From: Adlercreutzia sp. ZJ141
GTDB taxonomy: Bacteria; Actinomycetota; Coriobacteriia; Coriobacteriales; Eggerthellaceae
Assembly: GCF_011038965.1 (NCBI RefSeq)
Contig: NZ_JAAKEB010000006.1
Location: forward strand, 62,001 to 126,000
Reading direction: 5' to 3'
DNA: 64,000 bases
In this document: positions 25,772 to 32,908 of the stretch, one piece after another
Layout of the letters: each line of letters starts with the position of its first letter
Numbering within the stretch: the first letter of the stretch is position 1
The notes under the pieces: model-generated
What the model was told of the DNA's origin: nothing
Database searches by the model: none
What the model saw: only the letters and a program-made list of their open reading frames with translations
Program-made: the position numbers and the translations under genes

Positions 25772-26533
25772 GTTTGATTACCAGTCAGAATGTCACTGCT
25801 CCAAAACGATGTGGTGAGCTGGTCGCTTTGCCACGCCGTTTGAGTACCAGTCAGAATGTCACTGCTCCAAAACAACACCTCGTTACGCGTGCGCAAAGAG
25901 GTGGTTTGAGTACCAGTCAGAATGTCACTGCTCCAAAACTACTACTCAATCTCCTAGATTTGCATTGCTCGTTTGAGTACCAGTCAGAATGTCACTGCTC
26001 CAAAACTTACTGGTTCCAGCGTCAATGCTGATTTAGGTTTGAGTACCAGTCAGAATGTCACTGCTCCAAAACATTCCAATTACCTTGCAAACAAAACCAA
26101 CCGTTTGAGTACCAGTCAGAATGTCACTGCTCCAAAACTCGCAGAGCGCGGTAAGCTCTTCGGGCGTGTTTGAGTACCAGTCAGAATGTCACTGCTCCAA
26201 AACGCCAGACCAAGGGGGTATTTTGAACTTATGGTTTGAGTACCAGTCAGAATGTCACTGCTCCAAAACCATATCGTCGCTAATTGGTGACTTAATCACG
26301 TTTGAGTACCAGTCAGAATGTCACTGCTCCAAAACTTACTGGTTCCAGCGTCAATGCTGATTTAGGTTTGAGTACCAGTCAGAATGTCACTGCTCCAAAA
26401 CTACAACCACAACATGGTGCGGCGGCGTGGAGTTTGAGTACCAGTCAGAATGTCACTGCTCCAAAACTGGTTAGGTATCATTTGCCCAGTTCATAGGGTT
26501 TGAGTACCAGTCAGAATGTCACTGCTCCAAAAC
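25772..26533 (-). CRISPR. Type II-A CRISPR array, 12 repeats, 11 spacers
   Basis: Twelve 36-base repeats start at 25772, 25838, 25904, 25971, 26037, 26103, 26168, 26234, 26300, 26366, 26432 and 26498. Spacers are 29-31 bases. Read on the minus strand, the repeat begins GTTTTGGAGCAGTG and ends GTACTCAAAC, the orientation that pairs with the tracrRNA. The copy at 25772 has one substitution, as expected for the old trailer end, so the leader end is at csn2. The spacers at 26007-26036 and 26336-26365 are identical. The first repeat overlaps the end of csn2. Confidence 0.98.
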
Positions 26534-27272
26534 CGTTGAAGCAAATCCTTCCCTGCGTAGAAGGCGTACGATCTGACTGTCCGATCAGCAAAGTCTCAAG
26601 AAATCGCTGATCAATAAGCAGTTTTCTTTCTTTGCAGTATACCGAACAAGAAGAACCTCCCTCTAATACCAGCACCTTAATTCCAAGAAAAAGCACGTGT
26701 TCATAGAAGGATTCGAGCTCATTCTCGGCCAAAAAGGTATGCAAATTGATGAAAAGAAGTACCCCGTCAAAACCCATATCAGCTGCATATTCAACAAAGC
26801 ACATAAGATTGTCAAAGAGCGAAGCATCCTCGGGCACTTCAACATTGAAGTTAAAAGCCTTAAGAAATGTGGCCAGATCCCATTCTACCTCGAAAGCGTA
26901 GTCGCCTTGCATCTGATACCCCAGCTGAGATACCACCACCCTCAGTTGAGTACCCAGTCTTTCAATTTGCCCCCTTAGATCATCATCCTCATGTGCAATT
27001 CCAACCGTCTTTGCGTACAAACCCCCAAATAGTTTCTTATGTTTCCACGGTAATGCAAAGGGATTGACTATTGGCAAGAACGCCGCACCAGCATTCACTG
27101 CCTCACCTTCATCATCCCACACCGTATAAGGCTCTATCGAGTCCTCTCCTTTTCCCGATAAAACAGATTGACAAATTCGCGCAAAAAACGCTGGAGATTC
27201 TATTTGCAAAACAGAAACATACTGGGAATCAATCTCGACCGCATGCTCTATCCCTGCAAAGCAAACTTTCAT
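26511..27272 (-). CDS. csn2: CRISPR adaptation protein Csn2
   Basis: This 253-residue protein is the fourth gene of a cas9-cas1-cas2-csn2 set, which defines type II-A. The sequence fits Csn2: a strand-rich N-terminus with a PFALPWKHKKLFGGLY segment, a helical region, then a GFDGVLLFINLHTFL / GIKVLVLEGG core. Csn2 forms a tetrameric ring on DNA ends during spacer capture. Its ATG overlaps the cas2 stop (ATGA). The last seven codons and the stop lie inside the leader-proximal CRISPR repeat, leaving no intergenic leader. Confidence 0.85.
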   Translation of the reverse strand: MKVCFAGIEHAVEIDSQYVSVLQIESPAFFARICQSVLSGKGEDSIEPYTVWDDEGEAVNAGAAFLPIVNPFALPWKHKKLFGGLYAKTVGIAHEDDDLRGQIERLGTQLRVVVSQLGYQMQGDYAFEVEWDLATFLKAFNFNVEVPEDASLFDNLMCFVEYAADMGFDGVLLFINLHTFLAENELESFYEHVLFLGIKVLVLEGGSSCSVYCKERKLLIDQRFLETLLIGQSDRTPSTQGRICFNGFGAVTF

Positions 27273-27622
27273 AGCACTAAAAGCTCTTCCATGGTGTCCA
27301 CTTCATCATAAGCCCCGCGACCCCCGGTGATGTAGACCATAGTGGCAAATTGCTTCTCCGTTACCTGCAGCACCTGGACCAAGCCTTCAGACGGCCTGTT
27401 CTTTCGCAAGCGCGCAATCGCGCTGTTTGCCGCATTGTCGTTTACCACCAGTTTCGCATACACCGACTCTTGAATCATCAAGTAGCCCTCCTTGATCAGG
27501 TGTTTACGAAAGAGTCGGTATTGTTTACGCTGTCGTGCCGTTTCAACGGGAAGGTCAAAGAACACAATCAGTCTCATATAGCGAACCCTCCCTTTCTTCT
27601 GATCGCTTTGTGTCGTGCTCAT
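27269..27622 (-). CDS. cas2: CRISPR adaptation protein Cas2
   Basis: The 117-residue frame starts at ATG 27622, overlapping the cas1 stop (ATGA). An internal ATG at 27577, behind GGGAGG, gives 102 residues and a more standard N-terminus (MRLIVFFDLPVET). The Cas2 ferredoxin-like pattern is clear: strand with the conserved Asp, then FRKHLIKEGYLMIQESVYAKL, and the II-A ending QVTEKQFATMVYITG. It bridges two Cas1 dimers in the integrase. Confidence 0.9.
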   Translation of the reverse strand: MSTTQSDQKKGRVRYMRLIVFFDLPVETARQRKQYRLFRKHLIKEGYLMIQESVYAKLVVNDNAANSAIARLRKNRPSEGLVQVLQVTEKQFATMVYITGGRGAYDEVDTMEELLVL

Positions 27623-28497
27623 ATGAGGGCAAAGTCATCAATGTCATCTACAGCAATTCGCTTATTGAGCGCATTGATGCATTGCTGGACATACTGAGAG
27701 ACAACTGACACCAAACGATACAATCCGCCACGATAGGACACCTCTTTGTTTGCAAGGTCGGCAAGCTGTCTGCGCATGACGGCATCAAATTCTCCCGCAA
27801 GGCAATCCACCACCAATCTGTCCACGGCAGGGCGGAAAGGCTCCATCAGATCGCACGTGAGATTGAACTGGTTGTACTCATTTCTATGACAGATCCCCAC
27901 CTGCGTGATGCATCCACGAGAGGTTACCTCTCGGTTAACCATGGAAAGCAAAATGGCATACCCGTAGTTCAGTGCCGCATTAATTGGTGTGTTTGTCTCA
28001 CGAGAGAAATCTGGTCCAAACAAAGCCGCAAAATATAACCGAGCCGCCTGAGCTTCCCTGTTCGTCACGTCCCCCGAACGAACTTCTGGAATAACCCCAT
28101 ACAACGTCTTTGCCTCACGATCATAGTCGCGTTCTTCCAAGAAACGCGCTTGCTCCCGAATCTTGTCGCGTACAACCTTCTGCCACACACGCTTTTTGAT
28201 GGGCTCGCCCCACTCCATCTGCTCTGCTATGCGCTTACTGGTGTTATGCGCTCCATAGAGGGGTAAGTACTGCCCCACCGGATTGCATTTATCGTCGCTC
28301 ACCAGCAAAGAAATCTTGCTCTGTGCCAGTTCCGCCATAAGATACGCACTGATATAGACCTGTCTGGTCTGCAATATAATGGTTGAGATTTCAGACAAAT
28401 GCACCTTTGCGGTGCCATCCTCTTTGCGCACCACTAAGTAGCCACTTTTGTACGACAAGCGACAAGGGCTTTCTACGAATACCGTCCTAAAGGCCAA
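27619..28497 (-). CDS. cas1: CRISPR integrase Cas1 (type II)
   Basis: The TTG at 28497, with AGGCGG upstream, gives 292 residues starting MAFRTVFVESPCRLSYK, the normal Cas1 N-terminus; a further TTG at 28515 is possible. Family motifs are intact: INAALNYGYAILLSMVNREV with the catalytic Glu, then ICHRNEYNQFNLTCDLMEPF with the His and Asp. It inserts new spacers next to the leader. It overlaps the 3' end of cas9 by about 11 bases. Confidence 0.92.
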   Translation of the reverse strand: MAFRTVFVESPCRLSYKSGYLVVRKEDGTAKVHLSEISTIILQTRQVYISAYLMAELAQSKISLLVSDDKCNPVGQYLPLYGAHNTSKRIAEQMEWGEPIKKRVWQKVVRDKIREQARFLEERDYDREAKTLYGVIPEVRSGDVTNREAQAARLYFAALFGPDFSRETNTPINAALNYGYAILLSMVNREVTSRGCITQVGICHRNEYNQFNLTCDLMEPFRPAVDRLVVDCLAGEFDAVMRRQLADLANKEVSYRGGLYRLVSVVSQYVQQCINALNKRIAVDDIDDFALI

Positions 28498-31400
28498 TAT
28501 GCGTCCGCCTTTCAAACATTCCCGTCACAGACTGGTCGATAAAGGTGATACCACCTCCTTTGGTCAAAATGTTACTGTAGGAGGGATGGATACACCCCGC
28601 ATATTTGGAACCCCCAGCACATTCCAAAATCACCATATTTCGCGCTCCACTGGCCGCTTCAACCAACGCTCGCAAAACAACTCCCTGAGATTCCGCCCCC
28701 AATCCAGAAAAAACACCTTCAAGCCGCTCAATTTGAAGCAGCTGCGATAGCTTCGGTGAATACCCTTTAAGCGAGCTAACAATTGTCAGAAATACCCGAT
28801 CTCGTTCTGCACTTGTAGTCGGCTTTCCTTCAATGACTCGCAGCATTGTCCACATCTCATCGCGATTGAAAGCAACCGCCACGGCATTTCTTGCCTCTCT
28901 CTTTCCTGTCAGATACAAGCGATTTCCGTCAAACTCCATCAGCTGACGCTTGTATATTTTTGGGCGAACGATTTTAACGAACTCAAATCCCTTTTCCTTA
29001 GCAAGACCTCGGGCGTATTCAGCTAAGGCGTCACTATGGGAAGTAATGCTCGACGCCACAGAAACCGGGACCTGCGCAAATTCCAGCACGGATACACCCT
29101 TTTTATTCATAGCTTTATAAATGAAAAAGTATGCAAACTCGGTTCCCGAATATCCACCGTACTTCATGGGGTCAAGCCCCTTTTTCAGCGAAATACCTGG
29201 GGCTTTCTTCCCTCCACGCGGAGAGTAGATGGTCGCTGTCCAGAACGCTCCGCTTGTCTCTTCGGGCATCCTTGAAATGAAACATTGGCGGCAATCAAAA
29301 TAACGCTTAAGGCGTTCCAGCTCTTTATTTGGAGCCCAGTCATCTATGACAATCTCGCCTGTCTCCGTGTCGTACCCTGGACGCATAAAACTCTTGATCA
29401 AAAACGACGAATCACCAGGCAGATGCCCCCGACGTGCCTCGTTTGCTTCCCTTTTCACAAAGGCTCTTAGCATTTTCGCGTATCGAATTGGATTCTCGTA
29501 CACATCGTTATGACGCTTCAAGATAAAGCGTCCGATTTCTGCCGCCAGCAATGCATCGTGAGCATGATGGAAATCATTCGCCTCACGACACTTCGGGAAA
29601 AGCGGTGGGATGCCATCTTTTTCTCGTTTGTGCTTACCAGGAAATTCGCGCAGCTCATGAGACAGAGCCGCTTTGATCGGCACAATGCTCACCTCTGGAT
29701 ACTGCGCATCCAAAAGCATTTGCACTGTCTTTACAACTTGATGCGTTTCTACCAGCTGGCGCGCAACAAAACCCTTCATCTGCCTTTCAGAAATACCTGA
29801 GCGCATAAGGTTGTTGTATTTCTTGTCTCCAATGAGCTTTGCGTCGTGAAGAGCCCTCCAATACGGTGCCATCTTCCTGCGAACGCCCTGGTCAATCAGC
29901 ATCTGATCAGACTTTGCTTCATTTTCAGAGGCCAACACCAGAGCTTTGTTCTCGAAACTATCATCTTTGATATATGACTGGGGAATGATATGGTCAACAT
30001 GATAGTCGCCTGAAGAAAGCCGCTCGATTTTGATAGGCGTACCCGAATACAACGACTTGCCACCTTGCATGAAATACAACGTCAAGCGCTCATTCAGATC
30101 GACGTTCCCCTTTGCGTGTTCAGCCAGCTCTTTCGATACTTCGCTATCCCAAAAACCAGACGCATTTTCCTTCAGCTTTGTCATGGCGTCCTTCAACGCA
30201 TCGTAGCGCCTTTTTGTGCGTTGCCCCCGTTTTTTAGCATCTTCCCCACGCGCAACCTCAACAAAGATATTGGCAGGCGCATGTCCCGCTATATCAACAA
30301 TCTCTTTAACAATGAGCAATGCCTGGCTGATACTACGACGCAACGCCGGTGATCCGGGAAGATCTTCCAAATTCAATCCCGCACCCAAAAGATGCTCTTT
30401 ATTCCAATCATCAATTACCTTGGTAAACTCCAGATTGTCATCATGCAAGACTTCCATAAGAACCATGGCGTTCCCATGCGACTTACCCGTGTAATTTGGA
30501 TTCCCCTCACGTAGCACATCCATAATTGAGCGTTCACCGTCATCCGTGGAGACCTTTATCTCACACAACAGCTTTTTCGACAGCTTTCCCCAGCCCGTAA
30601 ATCGCTTACGAACGATTTTGTCGATTTTCTCACTTGTTAAACGCTCGCCATACTTTGTCTTGAGCTTATCGCGAAATATGCCGCGATCTTCGAAGAGAGT
30701 GCTCCACAGAATGATTTCTTCAACCATATCGTAATCTGAGCCCGTGATATCCTCAACACCAAGAACATCCTTGAAGAAGTGATACGACGTCAACTTTGAC
30801 TCAAAGCCGCTTTCGCCTTGCCCACCCGACACATGCACATGACTATGACAGCGCGGGCTCTGCGCCATCCAATCAGATACTTTTTTGTAAGTTATTTTGC
30901 CCTTGCGCTGTTTGAACAGCTCTTCCATCATGTCAGTGCGATCAGCATAATCGAAGCGATGCTTCTTGTCTCCATCTTGTGTAAATCGTGCCCCGTTGAG
31001 CTCGTTAAGCACGCAAAACTCTTCATAAAGCAGCGAGCTTTTAGGAAGAACCGGTTCACCCTGCAAATACGTACACGTGCCCGTCATGCGACGGATAAAT
31101 GCCTCGGCACTGGCATCCTTGTCAATAATGTCTTCCCAGTTCCAAGGATAGATCTTCGTATCCTCCATACCAGGCTTGCGAATTGACCACGCAAAGCGCG
31201 GATCTCCGTCGGGCTTGTCGCCTGCTCTGCGCGCGCCCTTTTGCGTAAGTGGCCCCACGTAATAGGGGATGCGAAACTCAACAAGCGATTCCAGCTCTTT
31301 TTCATGTTCAGCCAAAAACGGATAGAACCGCGACTGGTTTTGAATAATGGCGTGCATTTCTTCAAGATGCAATTGGAAAGGGATGGCTCCATTATCGCTC

Positions 31401-32743
31401 GTTTTAAGACGGCGCAGAAAGCGCTCATTCTCAAAGTCTTCTATCATGCGAAGATAGCGCCCGTCTGCTTCTGCGGCCGTACCCTTAAAAAGACCTTGTG
31501 TCTCTTTTTTGAATTCATCATATGAAGTCATACCATGCACTTCGTTGTACTTCGTATAACCCTTGGCCTTTGCCTTGTCATACATATATTTCTGTGGATG
31601 CATCTCAGTAGCCGGATAAAATGAACCGCGGAAGAAAGCATCGAACTTCTCAGGCGCATAATCCTTCACCAGGGCTTTGAGCATCTTGAGCTGGTCTTTA
31701 TACCTGTTGTATTCGGCTACTTTGTTCTGAGAAAGCGATCCTCCAGGATTAGCTGAAAGTAACCCCTGTAGAACATAAGAAGAGTAGACCGCTCTCATAG
31801 AGTCAAAGAACAGGCGAGCTTCTTCGGGGCAGATTGCTTCGAAATCCTCTACCTCATCATCTTTGGAAAGGCTTATCTTGGTCTTTTTGTCCTCGGGCGC
31901 TTCTTCGCCGATAAAGAACACGTGAGCAAGTTCCGCACTTACACCCACAATAGCTCCAGCCAGAGCCTTTGCCATGTTCTTTGCCGCCTTCGCATTAAAC
32001 CCAGCAAGCGCATCTTCGTCTGCATCGCTCAGTGCCGCAATTCCAAGAAGCGGAACGATGCGTTCTTTGATAGCTGTGCGTGACTGCTGTGTATTACCCA
32101 AAGCCTCGGCTATCGCCTCTGCATTATCCTGAGCGGTGCAGCTAATGCCTTTTTCATCACACCATTCACTTAGCTTAAGGCACAAATCTTGTACTGAAGC
32201 ATCCATGTCTGCATGTTTGGAAGAAAGCTCCTTATTGCCCTGCTGAAGGAAGTTCCCGCGATGCTTGACAATGTTATGCAAAGCCAGATAGATAAGCCTG
32301 ATATCTGCCTTTTCGTCTGTTTCCATCAGATATGCACGCAGGTGATATATCGTAGGAAACGCTTTGTAATAGTCCTTTTCAGAGAAGTTAGAATTATTAA
32401 AGAGGGGCCAAGTATAACTTACGTGACCTTCTTCGCGATCTTCTGACAACAAGCGCGATTGCCCGAGGCGCACAAAGAATTCTGGATCGATTCGGTTCAT
32501 CTCTTCTAAGAAAAACTCTTGTAGCAAATCAAGACGCCACCGCCTTCGCACATAACGACGCCGCTGGCCACGCGGAACACGCGCCGCTGAAGCCGGTTCA
32601 GCATTAGGAAACAAACGACTACCCCATGTAGGCTTGCCCTTGAAATGGCACAGATTGCCCTCGGCATCAGTAACCGCCCACCCCACGGAGCCTGTTCCGA
32701 TATCGAGGCCTATGCTGTATTCGTCAACATTTCTCAGGTTCAT
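28487..32743 (-). CDS. cas9: Cas9 RNA-guided nuclease (type II-A)
   Basis: I choose the ATG at 32743, behind AAAGGAAA; an ATG at 32752 is possible. The protein has 1418 residues. RuvC-I is SIGLDIGTGSVGWAV with Asp14. RuvC-II is IFVEVARGED, the HNH core is YHVDHIIPQSYIKDDSFENK, and RuvC-III is HHAHDALLAAEIG. The Arg-rich bridge helix (RRRYVRRRWRLDLL) and a PAM-interacting region with DPMKYGGYSGTEFAY also resemble S. pyogenes Cas9. All nuclease residues are present. It uses the crRNA and the tracrRNA encoded divergently just upstream. The region is AT-richer than the flanking chromosome. Confidence 0.97.
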   Translation of the reverse strand: MNLRNVDEYSIGLDIGTGSVGWAVTDAEGNLCHFKGKPTWGSRLFPNAEPASAARVPRGQRRRYVRRRWRLDLLQEFFLEEMNRIDPEFFVRLGQSRLLSEDREEGHVSYTWPLFNNSNFSEKDYYKAFPTIYHLRAYLMETDEKADIRLIYLALHNIVKHRGNFLQQGNKELSSKHADMDASVQDLCLKLSEWCDEKGISCTAQDNAEAIAEALGNTQQSRTAIKERIVPLLGIAALSDADEDALAGFNAKAAKNMAKALAGAIVGVSAELAHVFFIGEEAPEDKKTKISLSKDDEVEDFEAICPEEARLFFDSMRAVYSSYVLQGLLSANPGGSLSQNKVAEYNRYKDQLKMLKALVKDYAPEKFDAFFRGSFYPATEMHPQKYMYDKAKAKGYTKYNEVHGMTSYDEFKKETQGLFKGTAAEADGRYLRMIEDFENERFLRRLKTSDNGAIPFQLHLEEMHAIIQNQSRFYPFLAEHEKELESLVEFRIPYYVGPLTQKGARRAGDKPDGDPRFAWSIRKPGMEDTKIYPWNWEDIIDKDASAEAFIRRMTGTCTYLQGEPVLPKSSLLYEEFCVLNELNGARFTQDGDKKHRFDYADRTDMMEELFKQRKGKITYKKVSDWMAQSPRCHSHVHVSGGQGESGFESKLTSYHFFKDVLGVEDITGSDYDMVEEIILWSTLFEDRGIFRDKLKTKYGERLTSEKIDKIVRKRFTGWGKLSKKLLCEIKVSTDDGERSIMDVLREGNPNYTGKSHGNAMVLMEVLHDDNLEFTKVIDDWNKEHLLGAGLNLEDLPGSPALRRSISQALLIVKEIVDIAGHAPANIFVEVARGEDAKKRGQRTKRRYDALKDAMTKLKENASGFWDSEVSKELAEHAKGNVDLNERLTLYFMQGGKSLYSGTPIKIERLSSGDYHVDHIIPQSYIKDDSFENKALVLASENEAKSDQMLIDQGVRRKMAPYWRALHDAKLIGDKKYNNLMRSGISERQMKGFVARQLVETHQVVKTVQMLLDAQYPEVSIVPIKAALSHELREFPGKHKREKDGIPPLFPKCREANDFHHAHDALLAAEIGRFILKRHNDVYENPIRYAKMLRAFVKREANEARRGHLPGDSSFLIKSFMRPGYDTETGEIVIDDWAPNKELERLKRYFDCRQCFISRMPEETSGAFWTATIYSPRGGKKAPGISLKKGLDPMKYGGYSGTEFAYFFIYKAMNKKGVSVLEFAQVPVSVASSITSHSDALAEYARGLAKEKGFEFVKIVRPKIYKRQLMEFDGNRLYLTGKREARNAVAVAFNRDEMWTMLRVIEGKPTTSAERDRVFLTIVSSLKGYSPKLSQLLQIERLEGVFSGLGAESQGVVLRALVEAASGARNMVILECAGGSKYAGCIHPSYSNILTKGGGITFIDQSVTGMFERRTHIGL

Positions 32744-32766
32744 GCTTCCCATTTCCTTTCCTGCGT

Positions 32767-32780: not shown

Positions 32781-32908
32781 GTCTTGATACCAGTCAGGAC
32801 GTTACTGCGAGTCAAAATACGGCTTAGCCAAAAATGCCTTTCTCGAAGGCGCCACGTAGGTGGCATATTCTGACTCACGAAGAACCCTTTCGAGGGTTCT
32901 TTTCTTTT
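32781..32908 (+). ncRNA. tracrRNA
   Basis: On the plus strand, 32781-32820 is an anti-repeat complementary to the minus-strand crRNA repeat, with a mid-stem bulge like other II-A systems. It continues into TCAAAATACGGCTTAGCC, matching the lower stem and nexus of known tracrRNAs. Hairpins follow at 32836-32850 (GCCTT/AAGGC) and 32851-32864 (GCCAC/GTGGC). A terminator AGAACCC/GGGTTCT at 32881-32900 ends with a T-rich tail. An extended -10, TGCTAAAGT (32767-32774), would start the RNA exactly at the anti-repeat. Confidence 0.9.

Follow-up and report, generated by a model that had tools for sequence, protein, structure and literature searches.

Where does the leader of a CRISPR array lie when the cas gene in front of it ends inside the first repeat? 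The question is raised by a locus of Adlercreutzia sp. ZJ141, contained in the window analyzed here, a stretch of 64,000 nucleotides of contig NZ_JAAKEB010000006.1 to which all positions refer. The stop codon of csn2, TGA at 26511-26513, lies within the leader-proximal repeat, repeat 1 (26498-26533), of which it forms nucleotides 21-23. An earlier note on this DNA placed both features correctly and concluded that the locus has no intergenic leader, so that the leader must lie within csn2 coding sequence.

Judged by its sequence, the locus is a type II-A CRISPR-Cas9 system. On the reverse strand, a single operon runs in the order cas9-cas1-cas2-csn2-array. The cas9 gene (28487-32752; 1421 aa) matches Pfam and NCBIfam profiles, profile matches were also obtained for type II cas1 (27619-28515) and cas2 (27269-27622), and the Csn2 profiles Pfam PF09711 and NCBIfam TIGR01866 score 114 bits against csn2 (26511-27272; 253 aa). 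The tracrRNA gene adjoins cas9 in divergent orientation on the forward strand (32781-32908, ends approximate). It contains an anti-repeat and a terminator hairpin, and the duplex of its anti-repeat with the repeat was computed at -39.7 kcal/mol, as expected of a type II-A tracrRNA.

The array (25772-26533, reverse strand) has 12 repeats of 36 nt and 11 spacers of 29-31 nt. Its first 11 repeats are identical, and the lone mismatch is at nt 30 of the distal repeat. Because the mismatch is confined to the distal repeat, the leader end of the array is the csn2 end; a leader next to the csn2-side repeat and a degenerate distal repeat are both as expected for type II-A. The distal repeat (25772-25807) carries GTAATC, the other 11 carry GTACTC. 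Since GTAATC is the usual form in relatives, the repeat of this array was probably altered after the distal, oldest repeat had been laid down. Spacers 3 (26336-26365) and 8 (26007-26036) are identical, CTAAATCAGCATTGACGCTGGAACCAGTAA, which may reflect either duplication of a repeat-spacer unit or more than one capture of the same sequence.

The seven last codons of csn2 had been described as repeat sequence. This is true of six; the first of the seven, GGT, is split by the junction, its first G being contributed by the leader. The Csn2 profile ends at amino acid 226, and codons 227-253 (26514-26594, reverse strand) form a C-terminal extension encoded by the leader together with nt 1-20 of repeat 1. 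This extension is missing from most relatives, and solved Csn2 chains (219-235 aa) align just up to profile position 205-210. Read from the sequence, the extra tail of 24-27 aa (QGRICFNGFGAVTF and similar in five genomes) is what leader and repeat encode in that frame; compared with relatives, no sign was seen that tail or leader differ in the overlapping genomes. Two of the three reading frames of the repeat contain a stop codon (TGA at nt 13-15 in one, TGA at nt 21-23 in the other), so an end of csn2 in the repeat is unsurprising once the usual stop has been lost. The TGA at nt 21-23 is retained in 12 of 12 repeats of the array. Together with the identity of the first 11 repeats, this bears out the claim that each acquisition preserves the csn2 end.

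The position of the leader can be understood from relatives, whose csn2 genes were gathered from whole-genome sequences within its family and order. Among 44 csn2-array junctions of the order, 41 have a complete csn2 and array and three lie at contig ends, the latter agreeing with the former. In most of the 41 complete junctions csn2 ends at about residue 224-232 and its stop lies 48-56 nt before the repeat. This gap is a leader that abuts the repeat and is conserved in sequence across the relatives; it is separate in 38 relatives and partly overlapped by csn2 in one more. In the window, the homologous leader (26534-26582, reverse strand; about 49 nt up to the repeat) is complete. By reading of the sequence, csn2 lacks its usual stop and its frame is translated through the leader. 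The leader indeed lies wholly inside the ORF in the window and in four relatives, so the location given in the earlier note stands. Its statement that there is no intergenic leader holds for the window and not for the relatives, in which a separate leader is clearly present, an outcome that the note itself had set against its reading; only the position of the csn2 stop differs.

A natural series of csn2 ends is observed. Most relatives stop before the leader, one stops within it, and five genomes (the window, G016, G175, G176, and G225) end in the repeat with identical geometry, a stop-to-repeat gap of -23. Between the window and G016, the frame across the leader aligns without gaps. In G157 (locus L039), csn2 has 240 aa and stops 16 nt before the repeat, within the leader structure; by sequence, it is an intermediate between the separate and the fully overlapped leader. 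The csn2 codons ATT GAT CAG of the window (26607-26615, reverse strand) correspond to a motif nTTGACcaG of the relatives, with conserved third positions. The distance between this motif and the repeat is 80-82 nt in 39 of 41 loci and 78 nt in the other two, regardless of where csn2 stops. An apparent frame bias of the relatives toward the repeat stop is accounted for by this rigid 80-82 nt spacing. The overlapping csn2 genes cluster on the csn2 tree (2 changes versus 4.8 after shuffling; 0 of 500), and one origin for all five is possible. From these comparisons, it is most likely that the csn2 stop drifted downstream across a leader of fixed length into the first repeat. No csn2 relatives were found in viral contigs. 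At one further locus (L077/L114, genome G331) the leader-repeat model described below matches at 50 bits and the csn2 profile search listed no match; this locus is possibly csn2-less or broken.

What is the leader whose length is so well kept? It is predicted to be an RNA anti-repeat split by a small hairpin, forming with repeat 1 a three-way junction of helices P1, P2, and P3 (26504-26582, reverse strand; covariance model R1, 70.5 bits, E=1.5e-14). The 5' strand of P1 (26566-26579, CAGTCAGATCGT) is the leader anti-repeat to repeat nt 14-27, with the 3' half of the repeat as predicted partner; with two mismatched pairs, P1 is the weakest helix in the window and ranks among the weaker P1 helices of the loci compared. 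P2 (26547-26564) is a leader-internal hairpin, CCTTCTACGCAGGGAAGG, with the stem CCTTC..GAAGG. P3 (26523-26543) is a hairpin across the leader-repeat junction, TGCTTCAA-CGGTT-TTGGAGCA, in which the 3' end of the leader pairs with TTGGAGCA in the 5' third of the repeat. In the computed fold, P1 and P3 together cover most of repeat nt 3-28. When a 360-nt segment of the window was folded, leader pairing had a mean probability of 0.57 for repeat 1 and at most 0.06 for repeats 2-4. Nine leader sequences folded singly gave similar three-helix shapes, as did most of the set, and in the five overlapping genomes the structure is kept under the csn2 frame, with minimum free energies from -28.8 to -40.5 kcal/mol.

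Applied to the raw MAFFT alignment, RNAalifold found P2 and missed the leader-repeat helices, because indels misalign the arms. A gapless subset and a covariance model were used instead. In the gapless alignment A3, which was not fitted to the model and whose 13 loci were picked for matching the predicted fold spacing and are not structure-blind, 12 of 30 pairs are changed on both sides, against 6.4 in shuffled alignments (0 of 500); sliding the partner lowered pairing from 88% to 28-51%. In the alignment of 44 loci (A5), which was fitted to the covariance model and hence favors it, 20 of 30 pairs are changed on both sides and 89% of cells are paired (0 of 500 shuffles). Pairing of leaders is also stronger with the cognate repeat than after repeats are swapped (mean -19.5 versus -15.9 kcal/mol; 0 of 20,000 permutations). 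Two loci, L046 and L047 (G148 and G153), have divergent repeats, CTGGGTAA versus CTGACTGG, and leaders changed to match, TTACCCAG; as judged from these sequences, they form a clear compensatory case.

Complementarity of leader and first repeat above chance, as in the type II-A hairpin of Liao et al., is present across the order and weak in the window alone. The window leader shows no preference for its own repeat (-15.1 kcal/mol versus a mean of -16.7 kcal/mol with other repeats), and its cross pairs are equalled by 14% of shuffled leaders. The structure in the window itself is supported mainly by homology. Among 396 phylum-sampled genomes, the covariance model has a single site in each of six, all of the same order, and a search of Rfam gave no match to a CRISPR or leader family in the locus. 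The leaders of Listeria and of G759, an actinobacterial relative at the level of the class whose leader ends differently, also fold into similar junctions, which suggests that the shape may be general in type II-A. Constraint on the leader by repeat pairing is present in all relatives, covered by csn2 or not. Departures of P1 from the exact complement are G-U pairs rather than A-C (57 versus 17; p=7e-4 after composition correction), which favors RNA over DNA. The G-U excess in P3 is not significant (p=0.65).

A role for such a structure has been reported in type II-A systems, whose leaders are said to pair with the extra first repeat, to suppress the extraneous crRNA, and to make the newest crRNA mature faster (Liao et al. 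2022, Nat Microbiol 7:530, as described in PMC13187072 and PMC12080349). As far as that hairpin is described there, the locus in the window has the same subtype and a leader directly upstream that is predicted to pair with the extra first repeat; it differs in that the csn2 ORF extends over the structure as far as repeat nt 23. In the window, the leader arms would pair with repeat 1 around P2 and cover the region that tracrRNA must bind. By analogy with the type II-A mechanism, repeat 1 thus occluded would give no useless extraneous crRNA, and repeat 2, which defines the newest spacer, would stay free for processing. The predicted fold takes up the stretch of repeat 1 to which tracrRNA would bind and leaves repeats 2-4 almost free, so that an identical role is the best inference here.

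The end of the leader may serve a further function. The type II-A integrase of S. thermophilus reads the last ~10 bp of the leader (PMC6895254), and in the window these would likely be the Cas1-Cas2 docking site. If the integration signal is the last 10 bp as in S. thermophilus, it would lie in the csn2 codons for I-C-F-N. The proposal of the earlier note that selection on csn2 and on the leader is tied together is plausible. The overlap would be tolerated because the TGA at repeat nt 21-23 does not depend on the spacer and is recreated by each acquisition. A leader that follows csn2 is also found in the systems described by Van Orden et al. 2017 (PMC5382924). The window leader ends in CG and those of relatives mostly in CG or TG, like the weakly conserved third group of that work; the window junction reads CAACG/GTTTT, with neither ATTTGAG nor CTRCGAG. 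That survey used sequence downstream of csn2, and the text searched mentions neither an overlap nor the Coriobacteria genera that were looked for.

Nucleotide signals inside csn2 were also found upstream of the leader. The motif nCGnTCnTTGA (26811-26822, reverse strand; csn2 codons 151-154) has third positions that are 94-97% conserved where the amino acids vary, and it is the best -35-like site of csn2. The motif TAgAaTGGGA (26878-26888, reverse strand; codons 129-132) is, across genomes, the site within csn2 that most resembles a -10 element. In both, third codon positions are 89-97% fixed across the order while residues vary; by the same criterion, csn2 has seven such constrained codons, cas1 two, and cas2 none. 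These embedded motifs may be the array promoter or another cis element. The two do not form a single promoter, as the -10-like site lies upstream of the -35-like site and they make no pair. No -10/-35 pair was found from the csn2 end to the repeat, and TTGAC at csn2 codons 220-221 was rejected as a -35 element since no -10-like sequence follows 16-18 nt on. Pairing of nCGnTCnTTGA with the repeat was likewise dismissed, as the motif, compared by eye, does not track repeat variants; near the tracrRNA, no second copy was found beyond chance.

The explanation that we consider quite probable is that of a type II-A locus in which the csn2 stop drifted over a fixed leader acting as RNA, the overlap being nearly neutral. 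The anatomy, the homologous leader, the stop drift, and the covarying structure are demonstrated by the analysis; from them we infer the RNA function, the integration role, and the near-neutrality. A sequencing error or frameshift that conceals a normal csn2 stop, which the earlier note had named as fatal to its reading, has a negligible probability: evidence in its favor was sought and none was found, the same end is present in four other genomes, and the G016 alignment is gapless through the extension. Because exactly this overlap recurs in four other genomes and csn2 of G157 stops inside the leader, the overlap is no sequencing or assembly artefact. We give little credence to the idea that there is no leader apart from csn2, and that selection acts on one sequence both as the C-terminus of the protein and as the integration signal. 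Such an idea agrees with an ORF that encloses the whole leader in the window and in four of the relatives; the homologous separate leaders of the relatives argue against it, as do the constraint on the leader with and without csn2 above it and a Csn2 profile that stops before the extension.

Two alternatives concern the function of the sequence. It is rather improbable that the inverted complementarity of leader and repeat is a DNA element, either a Cas1-Cas2-Csn2 integrase recognition site or a cruciform, and not RNA. The leader end and spacing are rigid, the integrase does read ~10 bp of the leader, and the absence of a significant G-U excess in P3 is consistent with a DNA role for the leader end. 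However, the pairing extends ~46 nt upstream of the junction, well past 10 bp, and the departures in P1 are mostly G-U, as RNA would give. There is also a small chance that Csn2 translation is mechanically coupled to array processing in the five genomes, the leader encoding both protein and a regulatory RNA. Ribosomes on the cas operon transcript would unfold the leader-repeat junction and terminate on repeat 1, linking Csn2 synthesis to the fate of that repeat, and an untranslated transcript from a csn2-internal promoter would keep the hairpin. In these genomes the ORF spans the 5' arm of P1, both other helices, and the 3' arm of P1 as far as repeat nt 23, the structure is retained under translation at the energies given above, and promoter-like motifs are embedded upstream in csn2. 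Yet most relatives are without the overlap despite an otherwise similar leader, leader and tail show no sign of difference where the overlap exists, and it perhaps has just one or two origins.

The preferred explanation, drift of the stop over a fixed leader, makes the locus an unusual arrangement of a known system, not a leaderless system. The literature searched contained no description of a csn2 ending inside a repeat. A partial parallel is the plasmid II-A system of Nicoliella spurrieriana (NZ_CP093360, L080), whose csn2 ends 30 nt short of the repeat and whose predicted leader-repeat pairing extends back into csn2 codons, as in the window. It differs in that the stop lies in the leader hairpin and not in the repeat, its leader sequence is unrelated, and it is a single example. 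Judging from this sequence, csn2-leader overlap may not be confined to the order of the window. In the type II-C pipeline of the group of Liao et al., leaders were trimmed at the nearest gene and those below 30 nt discarded (PMC12080349); a survey using this rule would drop the window locus.

CRISPR leaders are commonly regarded as intergenic sequence; the one described here, complete and structured, lies inside a cas gene. Leader inventories built by trimming at the nearest gene would miss such loci. The order-wide alignment provides a model of the leader-repeat junction that is supported by covariation. Moreover, the natural series of csn2 stops before, inside, and beyond the leader would allow a direct test of what it means to translate a leader.
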